DNA of 54,394 bases from Planctomycetales bacterium. Lineage in GTDB: Bacteria > Planctomycetota > Planctomycetia > Isosphaerales > Isosphaeraceae. The DNA is taken from assembly GCA_027449865.1 (NCBI GenBank), contig DAIDKV010000182.1:1-54394 (forward strand), written 5' to 3'. The notes below the pieces were generated by a model. The model worked only from the letters and a program-made list of their open reading frames with translations. It searched no databases and was not told the DNA's origin. Positions 10,056 to 51,191 of the stretch are shown piece by piece. The first letter of the stretch is position 1; every line of letters begins with the position of its first letter. The translations under genes and the position numbers were made by a program.

Positions 10056-10823
10056 TCAGAACGGGAAGGTCGCGTCCACCCGAGCGGCGGCCAGATCGCA
10101 AAGGAATCCGCCAATCCGCTCGACAACCAGGTCCGTCACCGCCTCGCCCTTGGCCGCCGACGCCCGACCGGGGTCGCCGGCTCCCGAATTGGTTGTCAGC
10201 AGGTGCCAGGGGCGGGTGATCTCGACCCATCCTCGGTTGACCGCCTCAAACCGGCTCGCGCGGACAGCTCCAGGATCGGCCCGTTCCATCTCAACCAGAT
10301 GGCCGAAATGCGCGAGCCCCATGCTGGTCTCCATCTCTCCGGCGTGGTCGTCCCTCGCTTCAAAAATCGTGGGATACGCATCAGCGATCATCCGAAACCA
10401 GTTGCAGAGGAACAATTGCACCTTCGACGATCGATGCATCTCGCGAAGAACCCACTTCAGGTCGTTCCCTCCGTGCCCGTTGAGAATCAGGCATCGGTCG
10501 ACTCCATGTGTCTCCAGCGAGTCCACAAGGTCGCCGATGACCCGGGCAAGGGTTGTCGGATTGAGATTCATCGCCATCGGGAACCGCATCTGGTTCGTCT
10601 CGGTCCCATACGGAATCGACGGCAGCAGGACCACCCTCGCCCCTCGTTCGTACGCCCAGGCACACGAACGATCGGCAATCACCTCAACCTGGAACGTGTC
10701 CGTCCCATAAGGTAGATGCAGATTGTGAGGCTCGGTCGCGCCCAGCGGCAGAACAGCGACCTTGATCGGTGGCTCTCCCTTGATTCGGCCGTAGTTTATT
10801 TCGGCCAGCCGCCATGGTTGCAT
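10056..10823 (-). CDS. Creatininase-family amidohydrolase
   Basis: A 255-residue protein starting at ATG 10823 with GGAAGAGA upstream (a GTG directly precedes the ATG). The creatininase pattern is clear: AVLPLGATEPHNLHLPYGTDTF supplies the metal ligands Glu, His and Asp, followed by LPSIPYGTETNQMRFP, the HGVDRCLILNGHGGND loop and DDHAGEMETSMGL with the second-sphere His and Glu. Family knowledge: these are zinc or manganese cyclic amidohydrolases acting on creatinine or on cofactor-like amides such as the mycofactocin precursor; family members in planctomycetes are mostly uncharacterised. The SCO lipoprotein follows on the same strand after 23 bases, a pairing with no obvious functional logic. 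Confidence 0.9.
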   Translation of the reverse strand: MQPWRLAEINYGRIKGEPPIKVAVLPLGATEPHNLHLPYGTDTFQVEVIADRSCAWAYERGARVVLLPSIPYGTETNQMRFPMAMNLNPTTLARVIGDLVDSLETHGVDRCLILNGHGGNDLKWVLREMHRSSKVQLFLCNWFRMIADAYPTIFEARDDHAGEMETSMGLAHFGHLVEMERADPGAVRASRFEAVNRGWVEITRPWHLLTTNSGAGDPGRASAAKGEAVTDLVVERIGGFLCDLAAARVDATFPF

Positions 10824-11018
10824 CACGTCTCTTCCATCCGGGAATCACGAAAGCCTTGAAGTTCCCATCGCTGGCACCGGTCTTATTGAGACCCGTTTCG
10901 GGAGGGATTGCAAGCCTTGCGAGCGGCGGGCCCGGTTCGTTACGATCGGGCGGGTCGGGCAGAGGATCACCGATTCAATCTCATCATAGTCTATCATCAT
11001 CCGAGGAACGGCCTTCCG

Positions 11019-12248
11019 ATGCAAGCCTTCGAGGCGACGAATTACTATTTTGATCAGGCAGCTCGGCGGCTCGACCTCTCGGAGAATATCCGGACCCTCC
11101 TCATGACGCCCGACCGCGAGGTCCGCGTCGAGGTCGCCATCGAACTCGATTCCGGCAAAATCGGCAACTTCATCGGCTACAGGGTCCAGCACGACAACGC
11201 CAGGGGACCCTACAAGGGCGGCCTTCGCTACCACCCCGCCGTCGATCAGGACGAGGCCCGATCGCTCGCCAGCCTCATGACCTGGAAAACCGCGGTCGTC
11301 GACCTCCCCTTCGGCGGTGCCAAGGGAGGCGTCAACTGCGACCCCACAAAACTCTCCCGCGGTGAACTCGAGCGGCTCACCCGCAAATTCATCGAAAAAA
11401 TCCACGACATGATCGGCCCCGACAAGGACATCCCCGCCCCCGACATGGGTACGGATGCTCAGGTCATGGCCTGGATTATGAACGAATATGGCAAATACGA
11501 AGGCTTCCAACCCGCCTGCGTGACCGGCAAGCCGGTCGAGTTCCACGGCTCCGCCGGTCGCGAGGCCGCCACCGGCTTCGGCCTCGCGATCGTGACCCGC
11601 GAGATGCTCGGACGATCGAACCGAACGGTCGCCGGCACGACCTTCGCCATCCAGGGATACGGCAATGTCGGCAGCTTCACCGCTCGATTCCTCGGCCAGA
11701 TGGGAGGCAAGATCGTCGCGGTCTCCGACGCCTACGGCGCCATCGTCAACCCCGAGGGGCTCGACCTCGCCGAACTCGACCGGCACGTGAGCGTCTCGCA
11801 CAAGGTCGTGGGCTACAAGGGAGGCGACGCCGCGACTAACGAGCAGCTCCTCACCATGTCCGTCGACGTCCTGATCCCCGCTGCCCTCGGCGGCGTCTTC
11901 GATCGCGACCTCGCCCGCGCGGTGCAGGCTGGGCTCATTGTCGAGGCGGCCAACGGGCCGACCTGGCCCGAGGCCGACGAGGTCTTCGTCGAACGCGGCA
12001 TCCCGGTTGTCCCCGATGTTCTCGCGAATGCCGGCGGCGTGGTCGTCAGCTATTTCGAGTGGGTCCAGAACCTCCAGCATTTCCGCTGGCCGATCGAGCA
12101 GGTCCAGCGAGAGGAGGAGCGCCGGCTGGTCGACGCCTTCCGCGAAATCCACGATCTGGCCGAGCGCAAAAGCGTTTCCCTGCGCACCGCGGCCTTCATG
12201 AAGGCCATTTCCAGGGTCGGCCGGGCCAAGATTCTCGGCGGAATTTGA
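11019..12248 (+). CDS. gdhA: Glu/Leu/Phe/Val-type dehydrogenase (probable glutamate dehydrogenase)
   Basis: A 409-residue protein. ATG 11019 (GAGGA upstream) begins the typical N-terminus of short hexameric glutamate dehydrogenases, so the longer frame opening at 10908 is rejected. The substrate domain holds RGPYKGGLRYHP (Lys66), MTWKTAVVDLPFGGAKGGV (Lys90 and Lys102) and the catalytic Asp in PAPDMGT. The NAD(P)-binding domain begins at TFAIQGYGNVGS with the GxGxxG pattern. C-terminal ANAGGVVVSYFEWVQN is also typical. It would interconvert 2-oxoglutarate plus ammonium and glutamate; the exact amino-acid specificity is inferred from the closest family memory. It is transcribed divergently from the creatininase gene. 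Confidence 0.88.
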   Translation: MQAFEATNYYFDQAARRLDLSENIRTLLMTPDREVRVEVAIELDSGKIGNFIGYRVQHDNARGPYKGGLRYHPAVDQDEARSLASLMTWKTAVVDLPFGGAKGGVNCDPTKLSRGELERLTRKFIEKIHDMIGPDKDIPAPDMGTDAQVMAWIMNEYGKYEGFQPACVTGKPVEFHGSAGREAATGFGLAIVTREMLGRSNRTVAGTTFAIQGYGNVGSFTARFLGQMGGKIVAVSDAYGAIVNPEGLDLAELDRHVSVSHKVVGYKGGDAATNEQLLTMSVDVLIPAALGGVFDRDLARAVQAGLIVEAANGPTWPEADEVFVERGIPVVPDVLANAGGVVVSYFEWVQNLQHFRWPIEQVQREEERRLVDAFREIHDLAERKSVSLRTAAFMKAISRVGRAKILGGI

Positions 12249-38497: not shown

Positions 38498-40516
38498 TTA
38501 CGACGCGGAGGCGGCTGACGCCAGGGGCGCTCTGCTGTCCGTCTCGGCGACGTCGAGGCACATTCGGGCGGCGATCGCTCGGCGGACCTCCATATGGTGC
38601 CTGCGATCGGCCTCCAGGCGAGCGGCTCGCCGGAGTCCTGGGCCGGCCATCGCCATGGCGGCGACGGCCGACAGATTGTTGATGGCGATGGAGCCCAGCA
38701 CGCTCAGGCCCGCCGCGAAAACGGCGGCGACGGCCCCGAGATTCGGCAGGAAGACCAGCGACCAGGAGCGCCGGAGGTTCCGGTCGAGTTCCTGCCCGAT
38801 CGCCAGCAGGTCGAGCAGCCGATCGGGATTTCCGTCGAGAAGCACGACGTGGGCAAAATCGTCCAGCCCTTCGACGGCTCGGAGTGAGATCGCGACCTGG
38901 ACGGAATGGGCCAGCTCGGGCCCGATGATCCGATCACCGAGGTAGCAGGTTTTCCGACCATCCTGGCGGAGAGAGCGGCACGGGCCGGCAAGGTCGAGAT
39001 CCGGCGGAACCTCGATCATCTCGATCCCGATCGCCCGAAGGGCCGAGATCATCGCGGATCGATCGTGGCCCTCGGCCTGGCCGAGGTCGAGGAGGACCGT
39101 GTCGATCCCTCGGATTCGATCGAGGGCATCGGGATCCTTGAGGACAATCCCCGAGTGAGCCGCGAGCGAGATGGCCGCGATCCAGGAAAGAGGCGTGGCC
39201 ATCCGGAGTCCCGTTCCGAAATCGCGGCCGAGGACGGCGAGTGCGCCGGCCGGTCCGATGGCGGCCATCCCCGCGATGGCGAGGGCGGCCGTTGGCAGGA
39301 TCGCGAGGCCCGCGATTTTATCCCCTTGTCGAGAGGCTTTCGGAGACCAGTCGGCGGCTCGATCGAGGAACTGCCCAATCCGGGCGGCGGTCGTTTCTTC
39401 ATCCCTCGACATGACCTCGATCTCCATTCGGCCGGCCATCGCGATCGTCGAGGCGAGTGCGAGGGCGCCGGGTCTCTGGATGGTCGTGGTGGTCGCGAGG
39501 TGGAGTGGAGAACCGTCGAGGAGAGCGCCGCCGCTGACGATCCGGCCATCAATGGGGACGACCTCGCCCGCTTCGACGACCACGCGATCTCCCGGGCGGA
39601 GCCGGTCAACCGGTCTCCGAACGAGGACGCCGCCCTCTCGGGCGCGGGCGATCGCGGGTCGCTTGCGGAAGCCGTCGAGCAGGAGCCGCCGGGCATCCTC
39701 GCCCGACCGATTGGCGAGCGTTTGACCGACGCCGAGGCACCAGACAAGCAGAGCGCCCGGGAGGACCAGGGAGGTACCCAGGCATCCGAGGACGACCGCC
39801 GAGTCGAGAATCTCGGTTCCGAGTCGTCGCTCGCGGACGACTGCCCGATGCGCCTTCTGGAAGATCGGGACAGCCGCGAGGGCACACAGGACGCCCGCGG
39901 CCGGCAAGAGCCCGGGAGCGGCGAACTGGCCGATGGCCGCGACAGGCACCGCCGCCGTGGCGAGGGTCAGGTGCCAGTCGACCGGCTCCATCGCGCCGGG
40001 GTCCGGACATCTCTGGACCGCCCCCTCGACGATTGCGACCAGATCGCGCCCGAGAAGCTGCGCCGGGTCGTAATCCATGCGGACGTATCCCGAGGCCGGG
40101 ACGATTCGGTAGTCCTCGACACCGAGCGTCGCCGAGAGTTCCCGCGCGATGGCGCGAAGGAGTGGCGGACGGCGTCGGATGGCACGGTTCGTCATCACGA
40201 GTCGGCCTGGGCGAACGAGTTGGATCTCCCATTCGCCGGGATCGCGATCGCTCTCGATGGGATCGCCGTCACCGCGGAGAGCGGCGGCGAGACGCGAGAC
40301 CACGGTTTCCAGCCGGCCCTTTCCAGGACGGAACCGGATCTCGGCGTGTGGGACTTGCCTCGCCTGGATCGTGACGCCGAGTACCTCCGGGACGCCCGCG
40401 ATCCGTTCGAGGAACAACCCTCGCGCCGGGTTCTCGGCATCGCCGAAGAGGGTGGCACTCTCCAGCCGGATGCGGCCGCGCCCTGGGAACGTCACGGTCA
40501 GGTCATTCAACATCAT
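38498..40516 (-). CDS. P-type-ATPase-like membrane protein lacking catalytic motifs
   Basis: A 672-residue protein. Residues ~1-85 and ~95-170 are two HMA-like ferredoxin modules without CxxC. Residues ~180-270 hold the first transmembrane bundle, ~271-385 an actuator-like domain (RLRPGDRVVVEAGEVVPIDG is the typical lead-in), ~400-460 the central helices and ~580-625 the last ones. Every catalytic motif is altered: TGE is replaced around LDGSPLH (333-339), the CPC-type site by ATPLSW (440-445), DKTGT by DLGQA (477-481) and GDGxND by LGDRIIG (526-532). The nucleotide-binding N-domain is missing, making the protein ~100 residues short. It lies 35 bases after terC. Inference: a non-pumping metal-binding or scaffold protein. 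Confidence 0.82.
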   Translation of the reverse strand: MMLNDLTVTFPGRGRIRLESATLFGDAENPARGLFLERIAGVPEVLGVTIQARQVPHAEIRFRPGKGRLETVVSRLAAALRGDGDPIESDRDPGEWEIQLVRPGRLVMTNRAIRRRPPLLRAIARELSATLGVEDYRIVPASGYVRMDYDPAQLLGRDLVAIVEGAVQRCPDPGAMEPVDWHLTLATAAVPVAAIGQFAAPGLLPAAGVLCALAAVPIFQKAHRAVVRERRLGTEILDSAVVLGCLGTSLVLPGALLVWCLGVGQTLANRSGEDARRLLLDGFRKRPAIARAREGGVLVRRPVDRLRPGDRVVVEAGEVVPIDGRIVSGGALLDGSPLHLATTTTIQRPGALALASTIAMAGRMEIEVMSRDEETTAARIGQFLDRAADWSPKASRQGDKIAGLAILPTAALAIAGMAAIGPAGALAVLGRDFGTGLRMATPLSWIAAISLAAHSGIVLKDPDALDRIRGIDTVLLDLGQAEGHDRSAMISALRAIGIEMIEVPPDLDLAGPCRSLRQDGRKTCYLGDRIIGPELAHSVQVAISLRAVEGLDDFAHVVLLDGNPDRLLDLLAIGQELDRNLRRSWSLVFLPNLGAVAAVFAAGLSVLGSIAINNLSAVAAMAMAGPGLRRAARLEADRRHHMEVRRAIAARMCLDVAETDSRAPLASAASAS

Positions 40517-40551: not shown

Positions 40552-41415
40552 CTACAGTTTAGCTTCCGAACCACTGATGCGGCGATCCGAGCTCGTGAAT
40601 CCGTCGACCTCTCCCGCGCCGGCCGCTTCGCCCGGAACCTCGGAGGATTCGTCGGCCTCGGATAACGCTTCCGATTCCAGGAGTTCCAGATTGCTGGACA
40701 TCGGTTGAGAGGGGCCGCTCGGGCGGATCACAAAACTGAAAACCGCGATCAGCAGCATCACCGACCAGAAGACCCAGTCGTTGATGTGGAATGGGATGAT
40801 CTCCCCGGAATGAAGTCCGCTGACGACCAGTTTCAGCCCGATCCAGGCGACCAGCACGTAGGCTCCCTGGGCCAGTCCTGGGAATCGGTCGAGCAGGATG
40901 ACGAAATATCGGACCACGAACCGCATCGTGATGATGCCCAGCACGCCGCCGGCGAGGACGATGAAGAACTTTCCGTTGTCGCCGAACCGGGCCGGGAACT
41001 CATCAGCCATGGCGACGGCGGCCAGGATCGAATCGATCGAGAAGGCAATGTCCGTCAGCACGACCGAGACCACCATCCCCCAGAACTTCGATCGGCGTCC
41101 GTCGCCAGCGGCCTCGTGCCCCGTATCCGACTGGAGAAAATGCCTGATCGCAAGGTAGAGCAGATAACCGCCGCCGATCAGCTTGAAGATCCAGAATTTG
41201 AGGAGGATCGCCGAGAGTCCGACCGCCACGACACGGAACAGAATCGCTCCCCAGATCCCCCACTGAAGAACCTTCCGCTGCTCGCGCTTCGGCAGGTGGC
41301 GGACCATCAGTGCCAGGACCAGCGCATTGTCGGCGCTCAGGAGCCCTTCGAGGAAGACCAGCACTCCGATGTACCACGCGATGAGGGGGACGTCGGAGAG
41401 CGAGAACGGGATCAT
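40552..41415 (-). CDS. terC: TerC-family integral membrane protein
   Basis: A 287-residue protein from ATG 41415, with GGGAGG nine bases upstream. Seven or eight helices are visible, and the TerC signatures EGLLSADNALVLALM and VLTDIAFSIDSILAAVAM contain the conserved acidic residues thought to bind the metal. The C-terminal ~60 residues are an acidic, Ser/Glu-rich cytoplasmic tail. Family knowledge: TerC proteins export manganese or calcium-type cations and supply Mn to secreted enzymes; some are linked to tellurite resistance. It is the first gene of the group that contains the pseudo-ATPase, 35 bases apart. Confidence 0.92.
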   Translation of the reverse strand: MIPFSLSDVPLIAWYIGVLVFLEGLLSADNALVLALMVRHLPKREQRKVLQWGIWGAILFRVVAVGLSAILLKFWIFKLIGGGYLLYLAIRHFLQSDTGHEAAGDGRRSKFWGMVVSVVLTDIAFSIDSILAAVAMADEFPARFGDNGKFFIVLAGGVLGIITMRFVVRYFVILLDRFPGLAQGAYVLVAWIGLKLVVSGLHSGEIIPFHINDWVFWSVMLLIAVFSFVIRPSGPSQPMSSNLELLESEALSEADESSEVPGEAAGAGEVDGFTSSDRRISGSEAKL

Positions 41416-42471: not shown

Positions 42472-42702
42472 TTATGACGACGAGACTTCGGGAGTGATCT
42501 CAGTGGAGGAAGCCGGGGAATCCGAAGCGTTTCGGTTCACTCCCAGAGCCTGGCATAAATAGGCGACGAGCAGGTGTTTGCTAATATTCAGGCCGAGGAT
42601 GCCCCAGAGAACCCCCAGCCGAAAGAGCCAGATGTTGATCGCAATCCCGGCGACCAGGCCGAGCATCATCGCGACGGTCATCTGGGCGGTGGGACGTTCC
42701 AT
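42472..42702 (-). CDS. Small two-helix membrane protein coupled to the SPFH genes
   Basis: A 76-residue protein from ATG 42702, five bases after the stop of the HflK-like gene, so it is translationally coupled. Residues ~8-50 form two hydrophobic helices (MTVAMMLGLVAGIAINIWLF and VLWGILGLNISKHLLVAYLC). The C-terminal ~25 residues are Ser/Thr/Glu-rich. No family is recognised. Being the last gene of the ATPase-SPFH group suggests it is a small partner of that complex (inference). Confidence 0.7.
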   Translation of the reverse strand: MERPTAQMTVAMMLGLVAGIAINIWLFRLGVLWGILGLNISKHLLVAYLCQALGVNRNASDSPASSTEITPEVSSS

Positions 42703-42707
42703 GCGAT

Positions 42708-43685
42708 CTAGTGTTGGCGACCGGCGGGTTTCCGGGGAGAGGCTCCCTCGGAACGGGTGATTGGTGCCTCCGGTGGGACCGGGGTGAACCGCCCGAGGAC
42801 GGTCAGGTCGGGCACCTGGCCAGGCGGAAGGATCAGCTTTCGGCGAACGCCCGCGAGCATGGCCTGAACGCTCTGGATGTAGATCGTCCGCCGGGTGAGG
42901 TCGGGCGACTTGCGAGCCTCGACGAGCAGGGCGAGGAAGCGATCGGCCTCGGCCCGGGCGGCGAGGAGGATTCGGCCCGCCTCGGACCTCGCCGATTCGC
43001 GGAGCGCTTCGCCTCGCGATGTTGCCGTCGCACGCTCGACCGCCTCGTGAGCGCGAGCGACCTGAATTCGGTCGTCGCGGCGGCTCTCGGCCGCCTGAGC
43101 CTCCGCGAAGTCGGCCGCGACCTCCGACGGCGGGCGGGCGTCGGTCAAACTCACGCCAAGGATTCGGAATCCCAGGCCCTGGGTCTCCACAAAGGACTGC
43201 AAGTCGTCGCGGGTCTCCCGCGCGATCTGGAGGCGGTCTGACCGGAGCGCCGCGTCGATCCCTCGACGACCGAGCGACCGCGAAAGCGCCGCCTCGGCGG
43301 CACCAGGGAGCAGAGCCTCGGCCCGCTCGCCCTGGATCGCGACCGCAACCGGGTCGGAGACGCGATACTGTAACGTCGCCTCAACGCGGAGGAGGTTCCA
43401 ATCGCCGGTCAGGAACTCGCCCGCCGACGGCTCGCGATCGGCCGACGCCGGCGCGGCCTGCCCGATGGTCAGGCGACGGACGGCATCCGTCGCGATCCGG
43501 TCGACGCGGTCGATCCCGAGCGGAATCCGCCAGTGCAGGCCAGGCCCCCAGGGTGGTTCGACGACCCGGCCGAGTCGGCGAACGACCGCGACCTCACCGG
43601 GCGCGACACTCACAAACCCCGACCCGAGGATCCCGAGGATCGCCAGAAACAGGACCGAGACCACGACAGTCCGGGTGCGTCTCAT
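42708..43685 (-). CDS. HflK-like SPFH/prohibitin protein
   Basis: A 325-residue protein with one N-terminal helix (residues ~5-25). The SPFH domain follows: VAPGEVAVVRRLGRVVEPPWGPGLHWRIP is the HflK-type opening (given in part), then ETQGLGFRILGVSLTDARPP and a long helical region (AEAQAAESRRDD, AHEAVERATATSRGEALRESARSEAGRI) that drives ring assembly. Family knowledge: HflK and HflC form a membrane cage around FtsH. No ftsH gene is present here. Two bases separate its start from the HflC-like gene upstream, so the pair is translated together. Confidence 0.88.
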   Translation of the reverse strand: MRRTRTVVVSVLFLAILGILGSGFVSVAPGEVAVVRRLGRVVEPPWGPGLHWRIPLGIDRVDRIATDAVRRLTIGQAAPASADREPSAGEFLTGDWNLLRVEATLQYRVSDPVAVAIQGERAEALLPGAAEAALSRSLGRRGIDAALRSDRLQIARETRDDLQSFVETQGLGFRILGVSLTDARPPSEVAADFAEAQAAESRRDDRIQVARAHEAVERATATSRGEALRESARSEAGRILLAARAEADRFLALLVEARKSPDLTRRTIYIQSVQAMLAGVRRKLILPPGQVPDLTVLGRFTPVPPEAPITRSEGASPRKPAGRQH

Positions 43686-43687
43686 GG

Positions 43688-44656
43688 TTATCGAGCCGCC
43701 TTCTGGATGGCCGGGGAGGGCTCGGCGCGACCGGCCTCTCGGGGCGCCTCGGCCGAGGAAACCGGCGCGGGTCCCTGAACCAGCAGCTTCAATAGCGGGC
43801 TGGTCGCCGAGAGAACCACCGTGGCGCGGTCGTCGAGAATCGATCGGTAGGCTTCAAGCGTCCGAAGGAACTCGAAGAACCGGGGGTCGCGGGCGTGCGC
43901 CTCGTTGAGCAGACGCGTGGCCTCGGCCTCGGCATTCCCCCGAATCCGGCTGGACTCGGCCTCGGCCTCGGCGAGGATCGTGTCTCGGGCGCGATCGGCC
44001 TGGCTGGTGATCGTCAAAAATTGTGCCTCGCCCTCGGCCCGGAGCCGGGCCGCGACCTGCCGGCGCTCGCTTCGGATCAGCTCGAAGACGGCCGGCCGGA
44101 CCTCCAGCGGATGACCGAACCGCCGGAGGCGGATATCGACCACTTCCACTCCCAACTCGTCGCGAGCGGCCGGGGCCACCGCGCCGAGAACCTCGCGAGT
44201 GACCGTGTCGAGCCCCCATCGGCCGGGGTCGGTCGAGGCCAGGCTCGCCAGTTCGCGGCGGCCGATCGCGTCGCTCAGGCTCGCCGAGACTCGCTCGTCG
44301 ATCCTCGCCTCGGCCAGCTCCGCCGTCCCCGAGCCTCGAAGAAAGGCGACCGGGTCCGCCACTCGCCAGACCACATACGCCGCCACCTCAAGGTTCCGCT
44401 TGTCACCCGTGATCACCTCCCGAGGCGCGGGATCGAAAACCCGGAACCGCCGGTCGATCTTGATGGCCGACTGCCAGGGCGCCTTGAAGTGCAGTCCGGC
44501 CCCGGTCGATCCTTCCCCGTAAACCGCCGAGACCCGGCCGAAGCTCGTGACCACGACCATCTCCGTCTCGTCGACGATCGCAACCGACGACGCCACCACC
44601 CCTACCAGGACGGCGATCCCAGGAACGATCACAAATCCACGCCGGAATCGGTTCAT
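43688..44656 (-). CDS. HflC-like SPFH/prohibitin protein
   Basis: A 322-residue protein with an N-terminal helix (IVPGIAVLVGVVASSVAIV). The HflC-type domain is recognisable by VTSFGRVSAVYGEGSTGAGLHFKAP, a REVITGDKRNLEVAAYVVWRVADP strand pair and EVVDIRLRRFGHP (given as separate pieces). A long helical C-terminal region is rich in Arg, Glu and Ala (RSERRQVAARLRAEGEAQFL). It lies ten bases after the ATPase-SPFH fusion and two before the HflK-like gene, so the three SPFH domains should be made together. Confidence 0.88.
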   Translation of the reverse strand: MNRFRRGFVIVPGIAVLVGVVASSVAIVDETEMVVVTSFGRVSAVYGEGSTGAGLHFKAPWQSAIKIDRRFRVFDPAPREVITGDKRNLEVAAYVVWRVADPVAFLRGSGTAELAEARIDERVSASLSDAIGRRELASLASTDPGRWGLDTVTREVLGAVAPAARDELGVEVVDIRLRRFGHPLEVRPAVFELIRSERRQVAARLRAEGEAQFLTITSQADRARDTILAEAEAESSRIRGNAEAEATRLLNEAHARDPRFFEFLRTLEAYRSILDDRATVVLSATSPLLKLLVQGPAPVSSAEAPREAGRAEPSPAIQKAAR

Positions 44657-44666
44657 TCAGATACCC

Positions 44667-47600
44667 TTATGGCGATCCCACTGGAGCGCCGGTGCCGGGG
44701 AGAACCTGACGGAGCGCTGGGAGCAGTGCCCGGTCGGCGGCATCCGGGACGATCAGATGATGACGGCGGCTCGGATCCTCGTCGAGCAGGAGCTTTTCCC
44801 GGTTCGCGAGCGCCCCGGATACCGCCGACCAGAACAGGCGTAGATCGGTCAGCGCCGGTGAATATTCGCGAGCGGCGAGCATCGTCGCGAACGTCTGGGC
44901 GGTCGCTGATGCCGTCGCGATCCGGCGTACCCGATCGGACTCGGCGGATTCCCGGACGGCCTGGGCCTGCCCGCCGGCCTCGGTGACGACCCGGTCGCGA
45001 TACGAGATTCCCTCATTGATCCGGCGCTGGCGGTCGCTGACCGCTCGCGAGACGTCTCGGTAGGCGTCGAGGACCGGGAGCGGCGGATGCATATCCTGGA
45101 ACGAGACCCGGCGAACGGCGATCCCGAACCGATGGGCGGCAAGCCGTTCGCGCAGCAGGAGGGCGGCGGCCGTCTCGGCGGACTCTCGGCCGGTTGTCAG
45201 AAGGTCGAGCAGCTCCCGGCGCGCGATGACCTCGCGGACGGCTGATTCCGCCATCGGCCCGAGAGACGCCTCGACGTCGTCGAGAGCGAAGACAAATCGC
45301 TCGATTGCGGTGGGGTCGGATCGATCGACCGCATATTCGAGTGTCGCCGAGACCTCGACGTATCGGCCGTCACCGGTGAGAAGTAGGCCCGCATCGTCTT
45401 CCGGACCGCCGCCCGTCCGGCCGTGGCTGGAGCCCCAGCCTGGATCGTCCTGCTCGGCGGGCGGGAGCCGGAAGCCAATCGGAAGCCCCCGGACGCGGTC
45501 GGGTGAGACGACGGTCACCCGCTCGATCGGATACGGCCAGCGTAAGTGCAATCCCGGATCGAGCGTCCCGGCCGAGCGGCCGAATCGCCGGAGAACGCCG
45601 ATCTCACCGGGGGCGATGGCCCTCCATCCGCTCGTCAGATAGGCTCCCATCAGGAAGGCAAGTCCGGTCAGCGTCGCGATTCGGCGACAGGACCAGATCC
45701 AGCCGGCGATGGAGCCCAGGTCGATCTGATCGTCAAGCTGATGGATGCGCGCTCCGAGACGCCGGATCGCCCGGACTGGCGGCAGCTCGTGCCAGTCGCC
45801 ATGAATCAGCAACCGCATCGAGTTGAGCAAAACGAGCAGTGAGCCGATCTGGTGCAGAACCGCCGCGGCAATCGGGCCGAGCAGGCCGAACGTCGCCGAG
45901 AGCATCGCGACGGCGTTGAACCCGAAGGCGAATCCGATGATATTCTGGCGGATGATCGCGACGGTCCCACGCGCGAGCCCGACCAGGTCAGGCAGAACGC
46001 GTAGCGGGTCGCCGAGGAGGATGATATTCCCGGCCTCGGCGGCGAGATCAGCGCCCGCGGCGCCGAGGGCGATCCCGGCGTCGGCGGCGGCCAGCGCGGG
46101 AGCGTCGTTGATCCCGTCGCCGACCATCGCGACTTTCCGCCCGGCCGCCTTGCGCTCCTCGATCCATCGAGCCTTGTCGGCCGGGAGTAGCTCGGCGGCG
46201 ACCGCGTCGGCGTGGATCTTCTTCGACGCCGCCCGAGCGGCCGGCTCGCGGTCGCCAGTCAGGATGACGACCTCTCGGATGCCCAGGTGCCGCAGGTCGT
46301 GAACGACGTCGTGCGCCTCACGCCGGATCGGGTCGTGCACGGCGATCACGCCCGCGAGGCGACCATCGATCGCGACGATCAGGGCCGTCTCGCCCCTCGC
46401 GTCGATGGCCGAGAGCTTCGACCCGATCGCCTCATCAGGCTCGATCCCGTGCTCGGCCAGCAAGCGGCGATTGCCGACGAGAACGTTCCGAGCCTCGCCA
46501 TGGGATCCTCGACACGTCGCCTGAACGCCGGCCCCCGGCAGGGCCCTCGAATCCTCGCTGGGCGGAAGTTCGATCGCTCGAAGGCGAGCCTCGGCCACGA
46601 CCGCAACGGCGAGCGGGTGTCGGCTCGAGGATTCAGCCGAGGCGGCCAGACCAAGAACGGTCGCCTCGTCGTTTCCGTCGATCGGTTCCAGGCCGCGGAA
46701 GGCCGGGCGGCCGAGGGTCAGGGTGCCGGTCTTGTCGAAGGCAAACGTGTCGCAGGCGGCGAGGCTTTCCAGCGCTGTTCCGCCCTTGATGAGGACCCCG
46801 TGCCGGGCCAGCCAGGCGATCGCGGCGAGCATCGCGGCTGGAGTCGCCAGGACGAGCCCGCACGGACAGGCGACCACCAGCACCGCGACGGCCCGCGACC
46901 AGGCATCCGGCCATCCGGCGAGGTATCCGATGAGAAGGGTCCCGCCCGCGACCACTTCCACGACGGGGAGGAAGTAGCGAGCCATCCGATCGGCGGTCTT
47001 CTCCAGCCTTGCCCGGCGCTTCCGGGCCTGATCGACCAGCTTGAGGACCTGGCCCATCGTCGTCTGATCACCCACCTTTTCGGCGTCGACCTCGATCGCG
47101 CCGAACTGGTTGATCGTCCCGCGGAAGACCGGATCGCCCGGACCTCGGTCGACCGGAATCGGCTCGCCCGTGAGCGCGGAGAGGTCGACCGTCGATTGTC
47201 CGCTGACGATGGACCCATCAACCGGAATCCGATCGCCGGGGCCGATCAGAACCCGATCGCCGATCAAGACTTCACTCGCGGGGATTTCCTGATCGATCCC
47301 ATCCCGGCGAACGCGGGCCGTTCTCGGGGATTGTTCCACGAGCCGGCCGAGGGCGCGCCGGGTGTGGGCGAAGGTCCACGCTTCAAGGACCTCGCCGAGA
47401 AGCGCGATGAAGACGACCTCCGCCGCGACGAACGGCTGCCCAATCAAAAGGGCGGCCAGGCAGGCCTGCGCAAGGGCGATGTCGGCACCGATCCGGCCGT
47501 GAAGCATCGCCTGCAAGGCTCCGTGAACGATGTAGACCGCACCCAGGAGCGCGGCGATCATCGTTGGCGAGAGGCCCATCGGATAATGTCGAGGGCCCCA

Positions 47601-47762
47601 GCCAGGGAAACCAAGGAGCAGGTCGAGCCCGATCAGGCCGCCGAGAACCGCCGTGAAGGCGATTAGCGCGCGTTCCTCGGCGAGAGGATCGGCCTGGACG
47701 ACTTCAAGGCCGGTCCCATGATGGTGGTGGTGCGTTTCGTCGTGGCGATACTCGCGGTGCAT
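44667..47762 (-). CDS. P1B-type metal ATPase fused to an HflK-like SPFH domain
   Basis: A single 1031-residue frame. ATG 47762 lies 23 bases after the upstream stop; ATG 47822 has a GGGAG site but overlaps the upstream gene, so the start is not certain. Residues 1-20 are His-rich (five consecutive His at 11-15). ATPase motifs are intact: TGE (198-200), CPC (299-301) in a transmembrane helix, DKTGT (Asp343), HP (382-383), TGD (502-504), GDGIND (548-553), and GSLLVLLNSMRLL near 640-652. After a ~35-residue linker a transmembrane helix (~696-712) leads into the SPFH domain: IAPGEIGVLRRFGRSAGTLDPGLHLRWP (in part), then AESAVREVIARRELLDLL and a helical C-terminus. The metal cannot be fixed from motifs. 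Confidence 0.9.
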   Translation of the reverse strand: MHREYRHDETHHHHHGTGLEVVQADPLAEERALIAFTAVLGGLIGLDLLLGFPGWGPRHYPMGLSPTMIAALLGAVYIVHGALQAMLHGRIGADIALAQACLAALLIGQPFVAAEVVFIALLGEVLEAWTFAHTRRALGRLVEQSPRTARVRRDGIDQEIPASEVLIGDRVLIGPGDRIPVDGSIVSGQSTVDLSALTGEPIPVDRGPGDPVFRGTINQFGAIEVDAEKVGDQTTMGQVLKLVDQARKRRARLEKTADRMARYFLPVVEVVAGGTLLIGYLAGWPDAWSRAVAVLVVACPCGLVLATPAAMLAAIAWLARHGVLIKGGTALESLAACDTFAFDKTGTLTLGRPAFRGLEPIDGNDEATVLGLAASAESSSRHPLAVAVVAEARLRAIELPPSEDSRALPGAGVQATCRGSHGEARNVLVGNRRLLAEHGIEPDEAIGSKLSAIDARGETALIVAIDGRLAGVIAVHDPIRREAHDVVHDLRHLGIREVVILTGDREPAARAASKKIHADAVAAELLPADKARWIEERKAAGRKVAMVGDGINDAPALAAADAGIALGAAGADLAAEAGNIILLGDPLRVLPDLVGLARGTVAIIRQNIIGFAFGFNAVAMLSATFGLLGPIAAAVLHQIGSLLVLLNSMRLLIHGDWHELPPVRAIRRLGARIHQLDDQIDLGSIAGWIWSCRRIATLTGLAFLMGAYLTSGWRAIAPGEIGVLRRFGRSAGTLDPGLHLRWPYPIERVTVVSPDRVRGLPIGFRLPPAEQDDPGWGSSHGRTGGGPEDDAGLLLTGDGRYVEVSATLEYAVDRSDPTAIERFVFALDDVEASLGPMAESAVREVIARRELLDLLTTGRESAETAAALLLRERLAAHRFGIAVRRVSFQDMHPPLPVLDAYRDVSRAVSDRQRRINEGISYRDRVVTEAGGQAQAVRESAESDRVRRIATASATAQTFATMLAAREYSPALTDLRLFWSAVSGALANREKLLLDEDPSRRHHLIVPDAADRALLPALRQVLPGTGAPVGSP

Positions 47763-47785: not shown

Positions 47786-48724
47786 TCAGGTTGAGACGTC
47801 GCCCGGGGCGGGCCTGGCCCATGATTCTCCCGGATCCGGACGCCCCGCACCACTGGCTTCCCCCTCCCGAATTCCCAGGCTCGCGTCGGAATCCGGTTTT
47901 TCCGGGTTGGCGGGCGTTGGGTTTTCCGGCTCGTCGGCCGCGCTTCGGACCCAGCGATCGAGGGCCTCGGCGTCGATCTCGTCGGTGGGCGAGAACCGAG
48001 CGGCCGGGCGATCGCCGCGACGGAAGCTCCCGCGAACGGTCGCCAGCCATCGGACCAGGGTCACCACGAACATGACCGCGAGCAGAATCAAGGTCCACCG
48101 GAGCGTCGAGCCCGAGCCGGGCGCCTTCGCGAAGGCCGACTGGCTCGCGTCCCAGCCAATCCGGCCGATCAGCAGCGGGGCGCCCCGGGCGACATCGCCC
48201 GCCTGGTACTTCATGATCTTGAGGAAGTATCCGTTGAAGACGACTCGCTCGGAGACGTTCGGACCGATCGGGAATCCCTTCGGCGGATCCTCGAAGACGC
48301 AGACGTACGGATAACGGCCCGTCTCGGGCGTCTCGATCCAGGCCTCGTACAGCCACCCATTCCGGCTGAGCTTCGACTCGTAGCGAAGGACGCGAAGCGC
48401 GGTCCCGTCGATGTGAACCGGAACGCCTCGATAATGCTCGGGCCGCTCCCAGAAGTGGGTCAGGAAAAGGTCGCGACGGCTCTCGGCGGCAAGCTGGACC
48501 GCCGATTTCCCTCGCGCCCGGTGGATCAGGAGCGAGTACGCCGCGGTGTCGCGAAGGGTCATCGGGGTGCGATCGCTGACGCTCTCGAACTCAACCGAAC
48601 GATCGGGCTCGACCGGCTTCGGCGGCGGCCCCGCCACCGCCGGGGGGACGACCGGAATCGGCCGCGACCGACCGTATTGCCAGAACGCCCAGATACCTCC
48701 CACCAGCACGGCCAGCAGGATCAC
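47786..48724 (-). CDS. Two-helix membrane protein of the TolQ/ExbD group
   Basis: A protein of about 312 residues with a helix near the N-terminus (LLAVLVGGIWAFWQYG) and a second near residues ~205-225 (WTLILLAVMFVVTLVRW). The loop between contains a compact domain: LLIHRARGKSAVQLAAESRRDLFL, HFWERPEHYRGVPVHIDG, WIETPETGRYPYVCVFEDPPKG. A charged C-terminal tail follows. The listed start is GTG 48724, yet the frame stays open to the preceding stop with the residues STFFRGSEFSRF just before it, so the true start is likely upstream. It follows the ExbD gene closely; a role as a partner of the ExbB/ExbD motor is inferred. Confidence 0.7.
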   Translation of the reverse strand: MILLAVLVGGIWAFWQYGRSRPIPVVPPAVAGPPPKPVEPDRSVEFESVSDRTPMTLRDTAAYSLLIHRARGKSAVQLAAESRRDLFLTHFWERPEHYRGVPVHIDGTALRVLRYESKLSRNGWLYEAWIETPETGRYPYVCVFEDPPKGFPIGPNVSERVVFNGYFLKIMKYQAGDVARGAPLLIGRIGWDASQSAFAKAPGSGSTLRWTLILLAVMFVVTLVRWLATVRGSFRRGDRPAARFSPTDEIDAEALDRWVRSAADEPENPTPANPEKPDSDASLGIREGEASGAGRPDPGESWARPAPGDVST

Positions 48725-48826: not shown

Positions 48827-49324
48827 TCAGGCACCCGGGGGCAACTCCTCGAAGCTGATGTTGGGCGGCTTCTTCGCCCGCTGAAAGGAGTTCGAGAAGG
48901 CGTTGATCACCCTCATCAACTCGGAATACTTCAGGTTCGGATCCACCTTGAGCACGGTCTGATCGAACGGCAGGGTCGGATCCTGCAAGTACTTGTCCAG
49001 TTCCTTCTCGAGCTCGGCGGGGGTGGTGGGAACCGCCTGTTCGCCCACGATGATCTCGCCGAGCGACCCGCCCGGACCCGCCTTGAGAGTCGTCGGCAGG
49101 GTACGCAGCTCGGCCGGGAGCTTGTCCGAGGCCGCGTCGCTCGCCGCCTCGGCACTCGACGTCGACGGGATCGCCGGGAGGAGGTTCATCAGGAACTGCC
49201 CCTCCTGCGGCATCGGATGATAGGTCAGGATGAAGAAGGTCAGGAGCTGGAAGGCCATGTCGAGCATCGGCGCGATCTGCACCGTCGGCTCCTCCGCCCT
49301 GCGCACTTTGCGACGCTTCGACAA
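48827..49324 (-). CDS. exbD: ExbD/TolR-family protein
   Basis: A 165-residue protein from TTG 49324, six bases after an AGGGGGA site. One transmembrane helix (residues ~16-36, APMLDMAFQLLTFFILTYH) carries the Asp that channels protons in this family. The periplasmic domain is longer than in typical ExbD, with an Ala/Ser linker and the VLKVDPNLKYSELMRVINAF strand-helix unit. It works with the ExbB/TolQ protein encoded upstream to couple proton motive force to outer-membrane or envelope processes. A second exbD-like gene precedes it, 27 bases away. Confidence 0.88.
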   Translation of the reverse strand: MSKRRKVRRAEEPTVQIAPMLDMAFQLLTFFILTYHPMPQEGQFLMNLLPAIPSTSSAEAASDAASDKLPAELRTLPTTLKAGPGGSLGEIIVGEQAVPTTPAELEKELDKYLQDPTLPFDQTVLKVDPNLKYSELMRVINAFSNSFQRAKKPPNISFEELPPGA

Positions 49325-49351: not shown

Positions 49352-49819
49352 CTAGCTGTTCATCGCCTTCAGGGCGAACTTGCGAAACCCGTTCGACTGG
49401 CAAGCCTTGATCAACTCGTGCACCGACGAGAACGAGGTGTCCCGATCGGCCCGAAGCACAATCGTGGTCGGCAAGCTGCCGCTGGTGTCGAGCTTCTTGC
49501 CGGCCGCCTTCAGGTTCAGCTTGATCAGGTCGGCCTGCCGCTTGATCGTCTGCACCGCCTGGTGGATCGGCTGAACCTCGCCACCCATCAGAAGATGGCC
49601 GTCCTTGTCGATGTTCAGAACCAGCCGATCCTCGTCCACCTGGCGGTCGTCCTCGATCGGCCGGGCCGAGCCCGCGACCGGGAGCGTGATCCGACGATCG
49701 TAGTTGTCCGAGCTAAAGTTGATCATCAGCATGAAAAACGTGATCAACTGGAAGACCACGTCGAGCAGCGGCGTGAGATTGGGCTCCGCCTTCAGCTCGG
49801 TCGACATCTGGGCGGACAT
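49352..49819 (-). CDS. exbD: ExbD/TolR-family protein, second copy
   Basis: A 155-residue protein; ATG 49819 with GGAG eight bases upstream. The helix LTPLLDVVFQLITFFMLMINF contains the family Asp. The periplasmic part has PTTIVLRADRDTSFSSVHELIKACQSNGF, the core ExbD fold (pattern only). It differs from the downstream copy mainly in the linker, so the two may form a heteromeric stator. It is 41 bases after the ExbB/TolQ stop. Confidence 0.9.
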   Translation of the reverse strand: MSAQMSTELKAEPNLTPLLDVVFQLITFFMLMINFSSDNYDRRITLPVAGSARPIEDDRQVDEDRLVLNIDKDGHLLMGGEVQPIHQAVQTIKRQADLIKLNLKAAGKKLDTSGSLPTTIVLRADRDTSFSSVHELIKACQSNGFRKFALKAMNS

Positions 49820-49860
49820 CGCGGGCTCCACTCGGTTTCGGCTCGAAGCGAATCCGTCGA

Positions 49861-50775
49861 TCAGGCGGACTTGGCCGCCTTCGCGGCGGCGACCAGCGAG
49901 TTGATCGTCCGGTCGGCCACACGAGTGGCCTCCATCGTCATCTGGGCGATCCGGTTGCGGAAGAAGGCGAAGAAGAAGATCGCCGGAACCGACAGCGAGA
50001 CCCCTTCCAGCGTGATGAAGAGAGCCATCGAGATACCCATCGCGACCTTCTCGGGACGAGGCTGGGCCCCTCCGGCGATCGCGATCTCCTTGAAGCTATC
50101 GATCATCCCCGCGATCGTCCCGACCAGACCGATCATCGGACCGAGCGTCCCGATAATCGCCAGGTAACTGATCTTCATCTCCAGGCTGGTGACGATCTCG
50201 TCGGAAGCTTCCATCATCGCCTCCTTGGCCTCCTGGCGTCCATTCGGCAGGTTGGCGATCCCGACCCGGACCAGTCGCGCCAGGTACGAGTCGTTATCCT
50301 TGCAGGCGTCGTAGGCGTCCTGGAATTTCTTCTCGGCGATCGCGGCTTCCAGCCGCTCCACCAGCGCTGTCGGGACCGCCTCGCTGACCCGAAGCTCCAT
50401 GAAGAGCCGGATCACCAGTGCCGTGAAGTAAATCGAGAGCAGCAGCAGGAATCCGCCGATCGGGCCCGACGCCCGGATGGCGAGCATCAGCAGGCTCTGG
50501 GGGGCGTCCGGGCTGGTTCCCGCGCCCGCGGCGTTATTGGGCATGGCGTTGCCGGCGGCGTCGGCCGCTGGGGCCGGCTCGGAAGCGGGCGCCGGCGCTT
50601 CCTCCTTGGCGGCGGGGGCGTCCTTGGCCTGGGGCGCCTCGGCCTTCATGTCCTGGGCCAGTAGCCGCGTGACCTCGCCCGTGCCCAGCCATGCCAGCAG
50701 CCCGCATAGCACCGCGACGACCAGCCAACGCCGGTCCGAGGTCCCGCCCGGCCCGGGTGCAATGAGCTGCCGCAT
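49861..50775 (-). CDS. exbB: MotA/TolQ/ExbB-family proton channel protein with N-terminal extension
   Basis: A 304-residue protein from ATG 50775 (GGAG nine bases upstream). Residues ~15-40 resemble a signal or first helix, then an Ala/Pro-rich linker (residues ~45-95) not found in standard TolQ. The core has LMLAIRASGPIGGFLLLLSIY, then EMKISYLAIIGTLGPMIGLVGTIAGMIDSF and SMALFITLEGVSLSVPAIFFFAFF (cited as motif pieces), which are the conserved MotA/TolQ/ExbB helices. Transcription probably begins at the promoter at 50955-50983. This gene opens the ExbB-ExbD-ExbD cluster common in planctomycetes. Confidence 0.9.
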   Translation of the reverse strand: MRQLIAPGPGGTSDRRWLVVAVLCGLLAWLGTGEVTRLLAQDMKAEAPQAKDAPAAKEEAPAPASEPAPAADAAGNAMPNNAAGAGTSPDAPQSLLMLAIRASGPIGGFLLLLSIYFTALVIRLFMELRVSEAVPTALVERLEAAIAEKKFQDAYDACKDNDSYLARLVRVGIANLPNGRQEAKEAMMEASDEIVTSLEMKISYLAIIGTLGPMIGLVGTIAGMIDSFKEIAIAGGAQPRPEKVAMGISMALFITLEGVSLSVPAIFFFAFFRNRIAQMTMEATRVADRTINSLVAAAKAAKSA

Positions 50776-51191
50776 CGATTGTGTCTCCACCGACGGATCG
50801 GAGTCGATTCTGTCTGGGCCTCGCCTCGGCCGGCCATCCATCCCAACGGACACGCCGGCTCCCCTGCGACCTACAAGCTTACGACGCCGGGTGGCCTCTG
50901 GTGACATCCCCCCTCGGGGACGCTCGGCCTTTTTCCGCGGGTCCGATTGAATTCACTATCCGACGGGACGGGGACGCTGTCAACAACCGAGACCCGCCCA
51001 GATTTCAGCGAATCGCCGGCCGATTGGCGCGCGCGGCCGCCCCGGTCGACGCAACCCGGACGATCGATACCGGCACGACGGTTGCTGACTCTCGCGAGAG
51101 CGAATCCAGACCGGCGCCTCGGTATGGCAAGACCCGCGAACCCGGCCCGACCGGCATCGGACGCACTCTCTCGAAGGGAGCGAACAACCGC
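50776..51191. other. Divergent intergenic region between tolQ/exbB and the SDR gene
   Basis: 416 bases with no protein-like frame. The minus-strand promoter at 50955-50983 is the clearest element. The open reading frame that runs through the region on the plus strand (into the SDR gene) has no ribosome-binding site and is unlike the SDR family N-terminus. Confidence 0.5.
50955..50983 (-). promoter_or_regulatory. Sigma-70-type promoter for the ExbB/ExbD gene group
   Basis: On the minus strand TTGACA (50978-50983), a 17-base spacer and GATAGT (50955-50960). The -35 is a perfect match and the -10 matches at four of six bases. Transcription would start near 50948 and reach the exbB start after ~170 bases of leader. 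Confidence 0.55.

Follow-up and report, generated by a model that had tools for sequence, protein, structure and literature searches.

A single gene of a Planctomycetales bacterium encodes both a P1B metal ATPase and an HflK-type SPFH domain in one polypeptide of 1031 amino acids. The gene lies on a 54,394-nucleotide stretch of DNA (contig DAIDKV010000182.1 of assembly GCA_027449865.1, referred to here as the window), is widely conserved among relatives and is partnered with genes for HflC and HflK. It is one member of a wider set of SPFH-subunit fusions, and the fusions that carry exporters constitute a real, conserved and apparently undescribed family. With a probability of roughly one half, such a protein acts as an HflK subunit with built-in cargo, placing exporters in the periplasmic HflK/HflC dome and thereby forming an efflux platform. 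There is a fair chance that this represents a new use of SPFH domes. The contents of these domes are debated, and most candidate cargos come from co-purification and are disputed. Here, evolution seems to have welded the cargo to a dome subunit, more than once and with metal exporters of different kinds; the cargo is thereby named, and the question can be tested directly.

The fusion and its neighbours are all encoded on the minus strand and are given below in order of transcription.

49861..50907, minus strand: ExbB/TolQ-like proton channel (Pfam MotA_ExbB, 1.1e-22); recurs near the fusion
49352..49831, minus strand: ExbD-like protein 1 (Pfam ExbD, 7.4e-20); recurs near the fusion
48827..49324, minus strand: ExbD-like protein 2 (Pfam ExbD, 5.6e-11); recurs near the fusion
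47786..48724, minus strand: 312-aa protein that contains hydrophobic stretches, separated from the fusion by 23 nt on its upstream side; also found next to the fusion in other genera
44667..47762, minus strand: the 1031-aa fusion of a P1B metal ATPase (residues 1-655) and an HflK-type SPFH domain (residues ~690-1031), from translation, Pfam and NCBIfam
45798..47762, minus strand: P1B-ATPase part of the fusion, with His-rich N-tail (1-30), A domain, catalytic motifs and M5-M6
44667..45695, minus strand: C-terminal part of the fusion, with the end of the linker, a single transmembrane helix (~695-713), the HflK-type SPFH domain and a long coiled-coil helix (Pfam Band_7, 1.1e-17; TIGR01933; AF2 model)
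43688..44656, minus strand: HflC-like SPFH protein, 322 aa (TIGR01932, 165.0 bits, above the cut-off of 134.4), 10 nt after the fusion
42708..43685, minus strand: HflK-like SPFH protein, the third gene, 325 aa (TIGR01933, 146.6 bits, below the cut-off of 159.4), after a gap of 2 nt
42472..42702, minus strand: small ORF for a membrane protein of 76 aa, separated from HflK by 5 nt; retained in genomes of the same genus

Translation of the window from 47762 to 44667 on the minus strand gives 1031 codons without a stop. The listed reading frame extends upstream to 48356; a start there was ruled out, and the ATG at 47762 was taken instead, because the nearest homologues all begin MHREY. In the window's own family, a His-rich tail usually follows these residues. 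The catalytic motifs of the ATPase are complete, comprising CPC at residues 299-301 in M4, DKTGT at 343-347, HP at 382-383, TGD at 502-504 and GDGIND at 548-553, so that the combination defining a P1B-type ATPase, CPx in M4 with DKTGT, HP and GDGxND, is present in full. The M5-M6 region contains HQxGSLxVLxN at residues 637-647, and no HMA domain was detected in the fusion. Pfam recognizes the E1-E2_ATPase, Hydrolase and Band_7 domains. In NCBIfam, the P1B-ATPase family TIGR01525 matches residues 96-651 with 561.8 bits (cut-off 346.25), and the HflK family TIGR01933 matches residues 715-998 with 148.3 bits, which lies below its equivalog cut-off of 159.4. The original prediction, made from the sequence alone, of one frame with the full set of P1B motifs, followed after one transmembrane helix by an HflK-like SPFH domain, is borne out by these matches. 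The join itself is genuine: the proportion of G and C at third codon positions (GC3) is high right across it, and a paralogue and many other genomes have the identical join, which excludes a frame error.

The separate HflC-like and HflK-like genes that had been reported directly downstream, with gaps of 10 and 2 nt, are confirmed by their coordinates. Directly upstream stands a block of ExbB, two ExbD proteins and the 312-aa protein, with gaps of 29, 27, 102 and 23 nt down to the fusion; a Pfam search for a known family returned no match for the 312-aa protein. This block is seen again close to the fusion in several genera, at L031, L050, L061 and L066, and on the opposite side at L056. It is possible that a proton-driven ExbB/ExbD motor is linked to the SPFH dome.

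The genome, 8.48 Mb in 278 contigs, contains a second fusion (C44:34879-37875) that is 49% identical to the first and is also followed by HflC and HflK; every HflC/HflK pair in this two-cassette genome adjoins a fusion. Within the same family, a clear one-frame fusion is present in 17 of 25 sampled genomes, and in 2 more it is cut by contig ends. In the class, a query spanning the junction, made up of the pump end (M5-M6), the transmembrane helix and the SPFH domain, found matches in 62 of 155 sampled genera (126 of 298 genomes), and the frames that it hit almost always had a length of about 1000-1200 aa. Single-contig genomes such as G035 and G405 are among those with the fusion, and one genome outside the class (G194) has it as well. 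The domain order is therefore found far beyond the genome in which it was noticed, and its homologues are not consistently two separate genes, the outcome that would have spoken against the original prediction. One scan beyond the phylum, in which outside phyla were barely covered, found fusions in Planctomycetota only, plus one unfused ATPase from Bacteroidia. When plasmids were searched with tblastn, the matches among the best 5000 records covered the ATPase part only, and none reached 80% of the query. In one single-contig genome (G016, fusion at L066:6920-10313, plus strand), the ATPase part is divided, at a distance from the join, between two frames that overlap, possibly owing to a frameshift.

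To identify other cargo, a profile of the fused SPFH domains (A1) was searched over 392 Planctomycetota genomes, and the sequences of those loci that had long frames were retrieved and inspected. An ArsP_1/SO_0444 permease (PF03773) precedes the same SPFH domain at 12 loci, L075 and 11 further ones; the fusion at L118 scores 368.5 against a cut-off of 300 for the SO_0444 Cu/Zn efflux equivalog. At L076, a CDF transporter is fused to the SPFH domain, and this protein exceeds both the CDF cut-off (120.3 against 82.35) and that of HflK (186.4 against 159.4). A search for its relatives, over the two genomes available from its order and class, gave no match besides G077, so that the CDF type is represented by a single genome. 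The commonest partner other than P1B is an unnamed multi-helix domain of about 250 residues, fused to the SPFH subunit at about 23 loci, for which no Pfam match was obtained in the 9 representatives scanned. Loci of this type (L126, L127, L131, L132, L134, L137 and L139-L152) have the same three-gene order and are common across Planctomycetota. Since these versions occupy the slot too, a purely metal-based reading is weakened, and with a partner that has no known transport function the slot need not concern metals. Long N-termini before third-gene HflKs (for example at L118, L119, L124, L144 and L123) were treated as overextended reading frames rather than fusions.

Gene order was counted at loci where the sequence continues for 2.5 kb or more downstream. 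The succession of fusion, HflC and HflK holds at 20 of 29 P1B loci, 11 of 11 ArsP loci, 21 of 22 multi-helix loci and the single CDF locus (1/1). A quick maximum-likelihood tree of 127 SPFH domains is largely divided into fused first-gene domains and third-gene HflKs, with weakly supported deep branches (80-87). The fused domains form separate branches for P1B (31 rows, support 98), ArsP (11 rows, support 100) and the multi-helix type (23 rows, support 100), while L073 (P1B), L130 (ArsP) and L076 (CDF) are placed apart; the tree requires six label changes to account for the five labels. The third-gene HflKs cluster mostly by the type of their partner, from which it follows that the cassettes have mostly been inherited as units.

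The pumps themselves are also related to one another. A 37-row tree, which also contained the unfused pumps of this genome and one outside pump, unites the fused ATPases in a single branch with support 86, or 100 when L073 is left out. They share CPC in M4, H-Q/E-x2-S in M6 (HE in two rows) and N in M5, and most of those in the window's family have the His-rich N-tail. The unfused P1B pumps of the genome instead carry D or SS in M6, or SPC with HEGS, which we take to be ZntA-like (Zn), CopA-like (Cu) and CoaT-like (Co) classes, respectively. The M5/M6 residues of the fused pumps fit no known substrate class (Cu, Zn/Cd/Pb or Co) and differ from those of the unfused pumps. With CPC in M4 and this M6 signature, the metal cannot be read off; the most plausible guess would be a divalent cation, for instance Zn. 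At L075, a ZIP-family gene (10710-11450, minus strand) lies ahead of the SO_0444-SPFH fusion gene and overlaps its start, a hint of zinc.

Among solved structures, the SPFH domain of the fusion is closest to HflK by both profile and fold. The fused SPFH profile matches E. coli HflK (7vhp, 7wi3 and 9cz1) at 2.9e-61, and Foldseek matches the modelled domain best to HflK of the nautilus HflK/C-FtsH assembly (9cz2, 7.7e-18), with high rmsd values that are probably due to the long helix. This AlphaFold (AF2) model of residues 690-1031 (pLDDT 74.7) places a membrane helix directly before the SPFH fold and includes a helix of 73 residues. The full-length model was too poor to use (pLDDT 48), so the predicted topology is drawn from hydropathy and from what is known of the family. 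P1B pumps end with their C-terminus in the cytoplasm, and one extra helix would take the SPFH domain into the periplasm.

These predictions suggest how a cargo-bearing subunit could work. From the cytoplasmic end of the ATPase, the added transmembrane helix would carry the HflK-type domain to the periplasm, the side on which the pump is expected to deliver metal and on which E. coli HflK and HflC build their dome. The E. coli proteins form a 24-subunit assembly whose SPFH domains lie at the periplasmic face of the membrane, with FtsH inside (PMC12048511). Together with the HflC and HflK of its operon, the fused subunit would build a mixed SPFH dome in which it fills some of the places of HflK; several pumps would be clustered at the dome rim, and metal would be discharged into or beside the dome. 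In relatives, an SO_0444 permease, a CDF transporter or the unnamed multi-helix domain would take the same subunit position. Co-assembly into one dome, the clustering of pumps and any effect on metal handling are all inferred, and the crowding of many pumps round one ring may be limiting. The earlier proposal that an SPFH structure tethers or gates the metal pump is plausible. If the cargo reading is correct, metal efflux would have a structural platform, possibly connected with the machinery of quality control around FtsH. A bolder extension, which we put forward tentatively and consider less probable than the platform itself, is that Planctomycetota possess a third kind of HflK/C subunit that holds interchangeable membrane cargo, often metal exporters, and turns the dome into a metal-export compartment of the inner membrane. 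If true, at least three unrelated exporter families would have been recruited to one slot in a new use of SPFH assemblies.

FtsH, a zinc protease, is at the centre of the main rival to the platform reading. According to this unlikely, though not negligible, alternative, the fused SPFH domain serves as an adaptor into the HflK/HflC-FtsH complex, so that FtsH degrades or turns over the exporter, or metal status steers FtsH. HflK and HflC are known modulators of FtsH (PMC12048511), and in Bacillus subtilis FtsH is linked genetically and physically to Mn-exporting TerC proteins, becoming essential once these are lost (PMC10550928). A TerC gene lies near the operon (40552-41415), but this proximity is seen in near relatives only. 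The original statement that no FtsH is encoded here is correct for the window and incorrect for the genome, in which FtsH is found at C86:8942-10453 with 776 bits; its presence allows such control, but the cassette itself does not include it. The link of FtsH to the fusion is inferred, and control by FtsH does not account for the choice of exporters over other membrane proteins as fusion partners.

Alternatively, the SPFH domain may be a mere stabilizing or oligomerizing tail of the pump, with no dome and no contact with HflC or HflK. Some fusions (for example L068-L070, L074 and L117), among the P1B type about 30%, have no adjacent HflC/HflK, as a simple tail would allow, but the genomes with lone fusions that were examined (G026, G031, G035, G405, G248, G020 and, for one copy, G008) keep HflC and HflK elsewhere. 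With this, and with the strong conservation of the three-gene succession at the other loci, the explanation is improbable.

It is quite improbable, too, that exporter and dome together create a local metal pool for loading periplasmic or secreted metalloenzymes, as proposed for TerC and Sec in Bacillus. The occupation of one position by several exporter types, the TerC gene near the operon in the window and the predicted DUF3604 proteins beside some second-type cassettes would agree with such a metalation site; against it, the context genes differ between genera, the DUF3604 matches are weak and no enzyme client was found. An artefact, in which two genes were joined by a sequencing or assembly error, has a negligible probability: the window does come from a draft assembly of 278 contigs, but the same junction occurs in the paralogue and in more than 100 other genomes, including the single-contig G035 and G405, and codon composition is even.

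Returning to the efflux platform, its nearest published idea, by analogy, is the mycobacterial PacL/CtpC platform, in which P1B pumps are gathered by a scaffold protein of their own, independently of flotillin (PMC9374683). Clustering of P1B exporters by a membrane scaffold, as proposed for the planctomycete fusion, is thus a shared idea, but the mycobacterial scaffold is a separate small DUF1490 protein, whereas here an HflK-type domain is covalently joined to the pump; no DUF1490 (PacL) match was found in the pump or in the tested operon neighbours. The E. coli HflK/HflC-FtsH system resembles the cassette in its HflK-type SPFH domain after one helix, its co-encoded HflC and HflK and its fold (9cz2/7vhq). 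However, its HflK has no transporter, whereas in the cassette a third SPFH gene carries the exporter and FtsH is encoded elsewhere. Compared with ZntA, CopA and CoaT, the fusion has all catalytic motifs, CPC in M4 and a TIGR01525 score of 561.8 bits, but differs in M6 (H-Q/E-x2-S) and in its C-terminal SPFH domain. Likewise, the L118 and L076 domains score above curated cut-offs as SO_0444 Cu/Zn efflux and CDF transporters, but are joined here to the same HflK-type domain. By its title, the structure of stomatin bound to aquaporin-1 (PDB 9zd2) also shows an SPFH assembly that holds a membrane transport protein, but it is human and non-covalent, and the protein is a water channel. No description of an exporter-SPFH fusion was found in the openly licensed literature, within which the original claim that no such system had been described stands; databases may display the architecture without comment.

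Further downstream of the operon, the window contains a TerC-family membrane protein gene (40552-41415, minus strand; Pfam 3.4e-49), situated between the SPFH operon and an adjoining gene for a 672-aa P-type ATPase homologue (38498-40516, minus strand) that is kept in the same genus. Pfam recognizes only the actuator domain of this homologue, which is likely an inactive pseudo-ATPase, since CPC and DKTGT are absent by eye. TerC and the degenerate ATPase are seen together only in close relatives. In addition, several genera have a predicted protein of about 1000 aa behind the second-type cassette, at L047, L062 and L065 (and, by position, at L051 and L060); some copies of this protein have weak DUF3604 matches.
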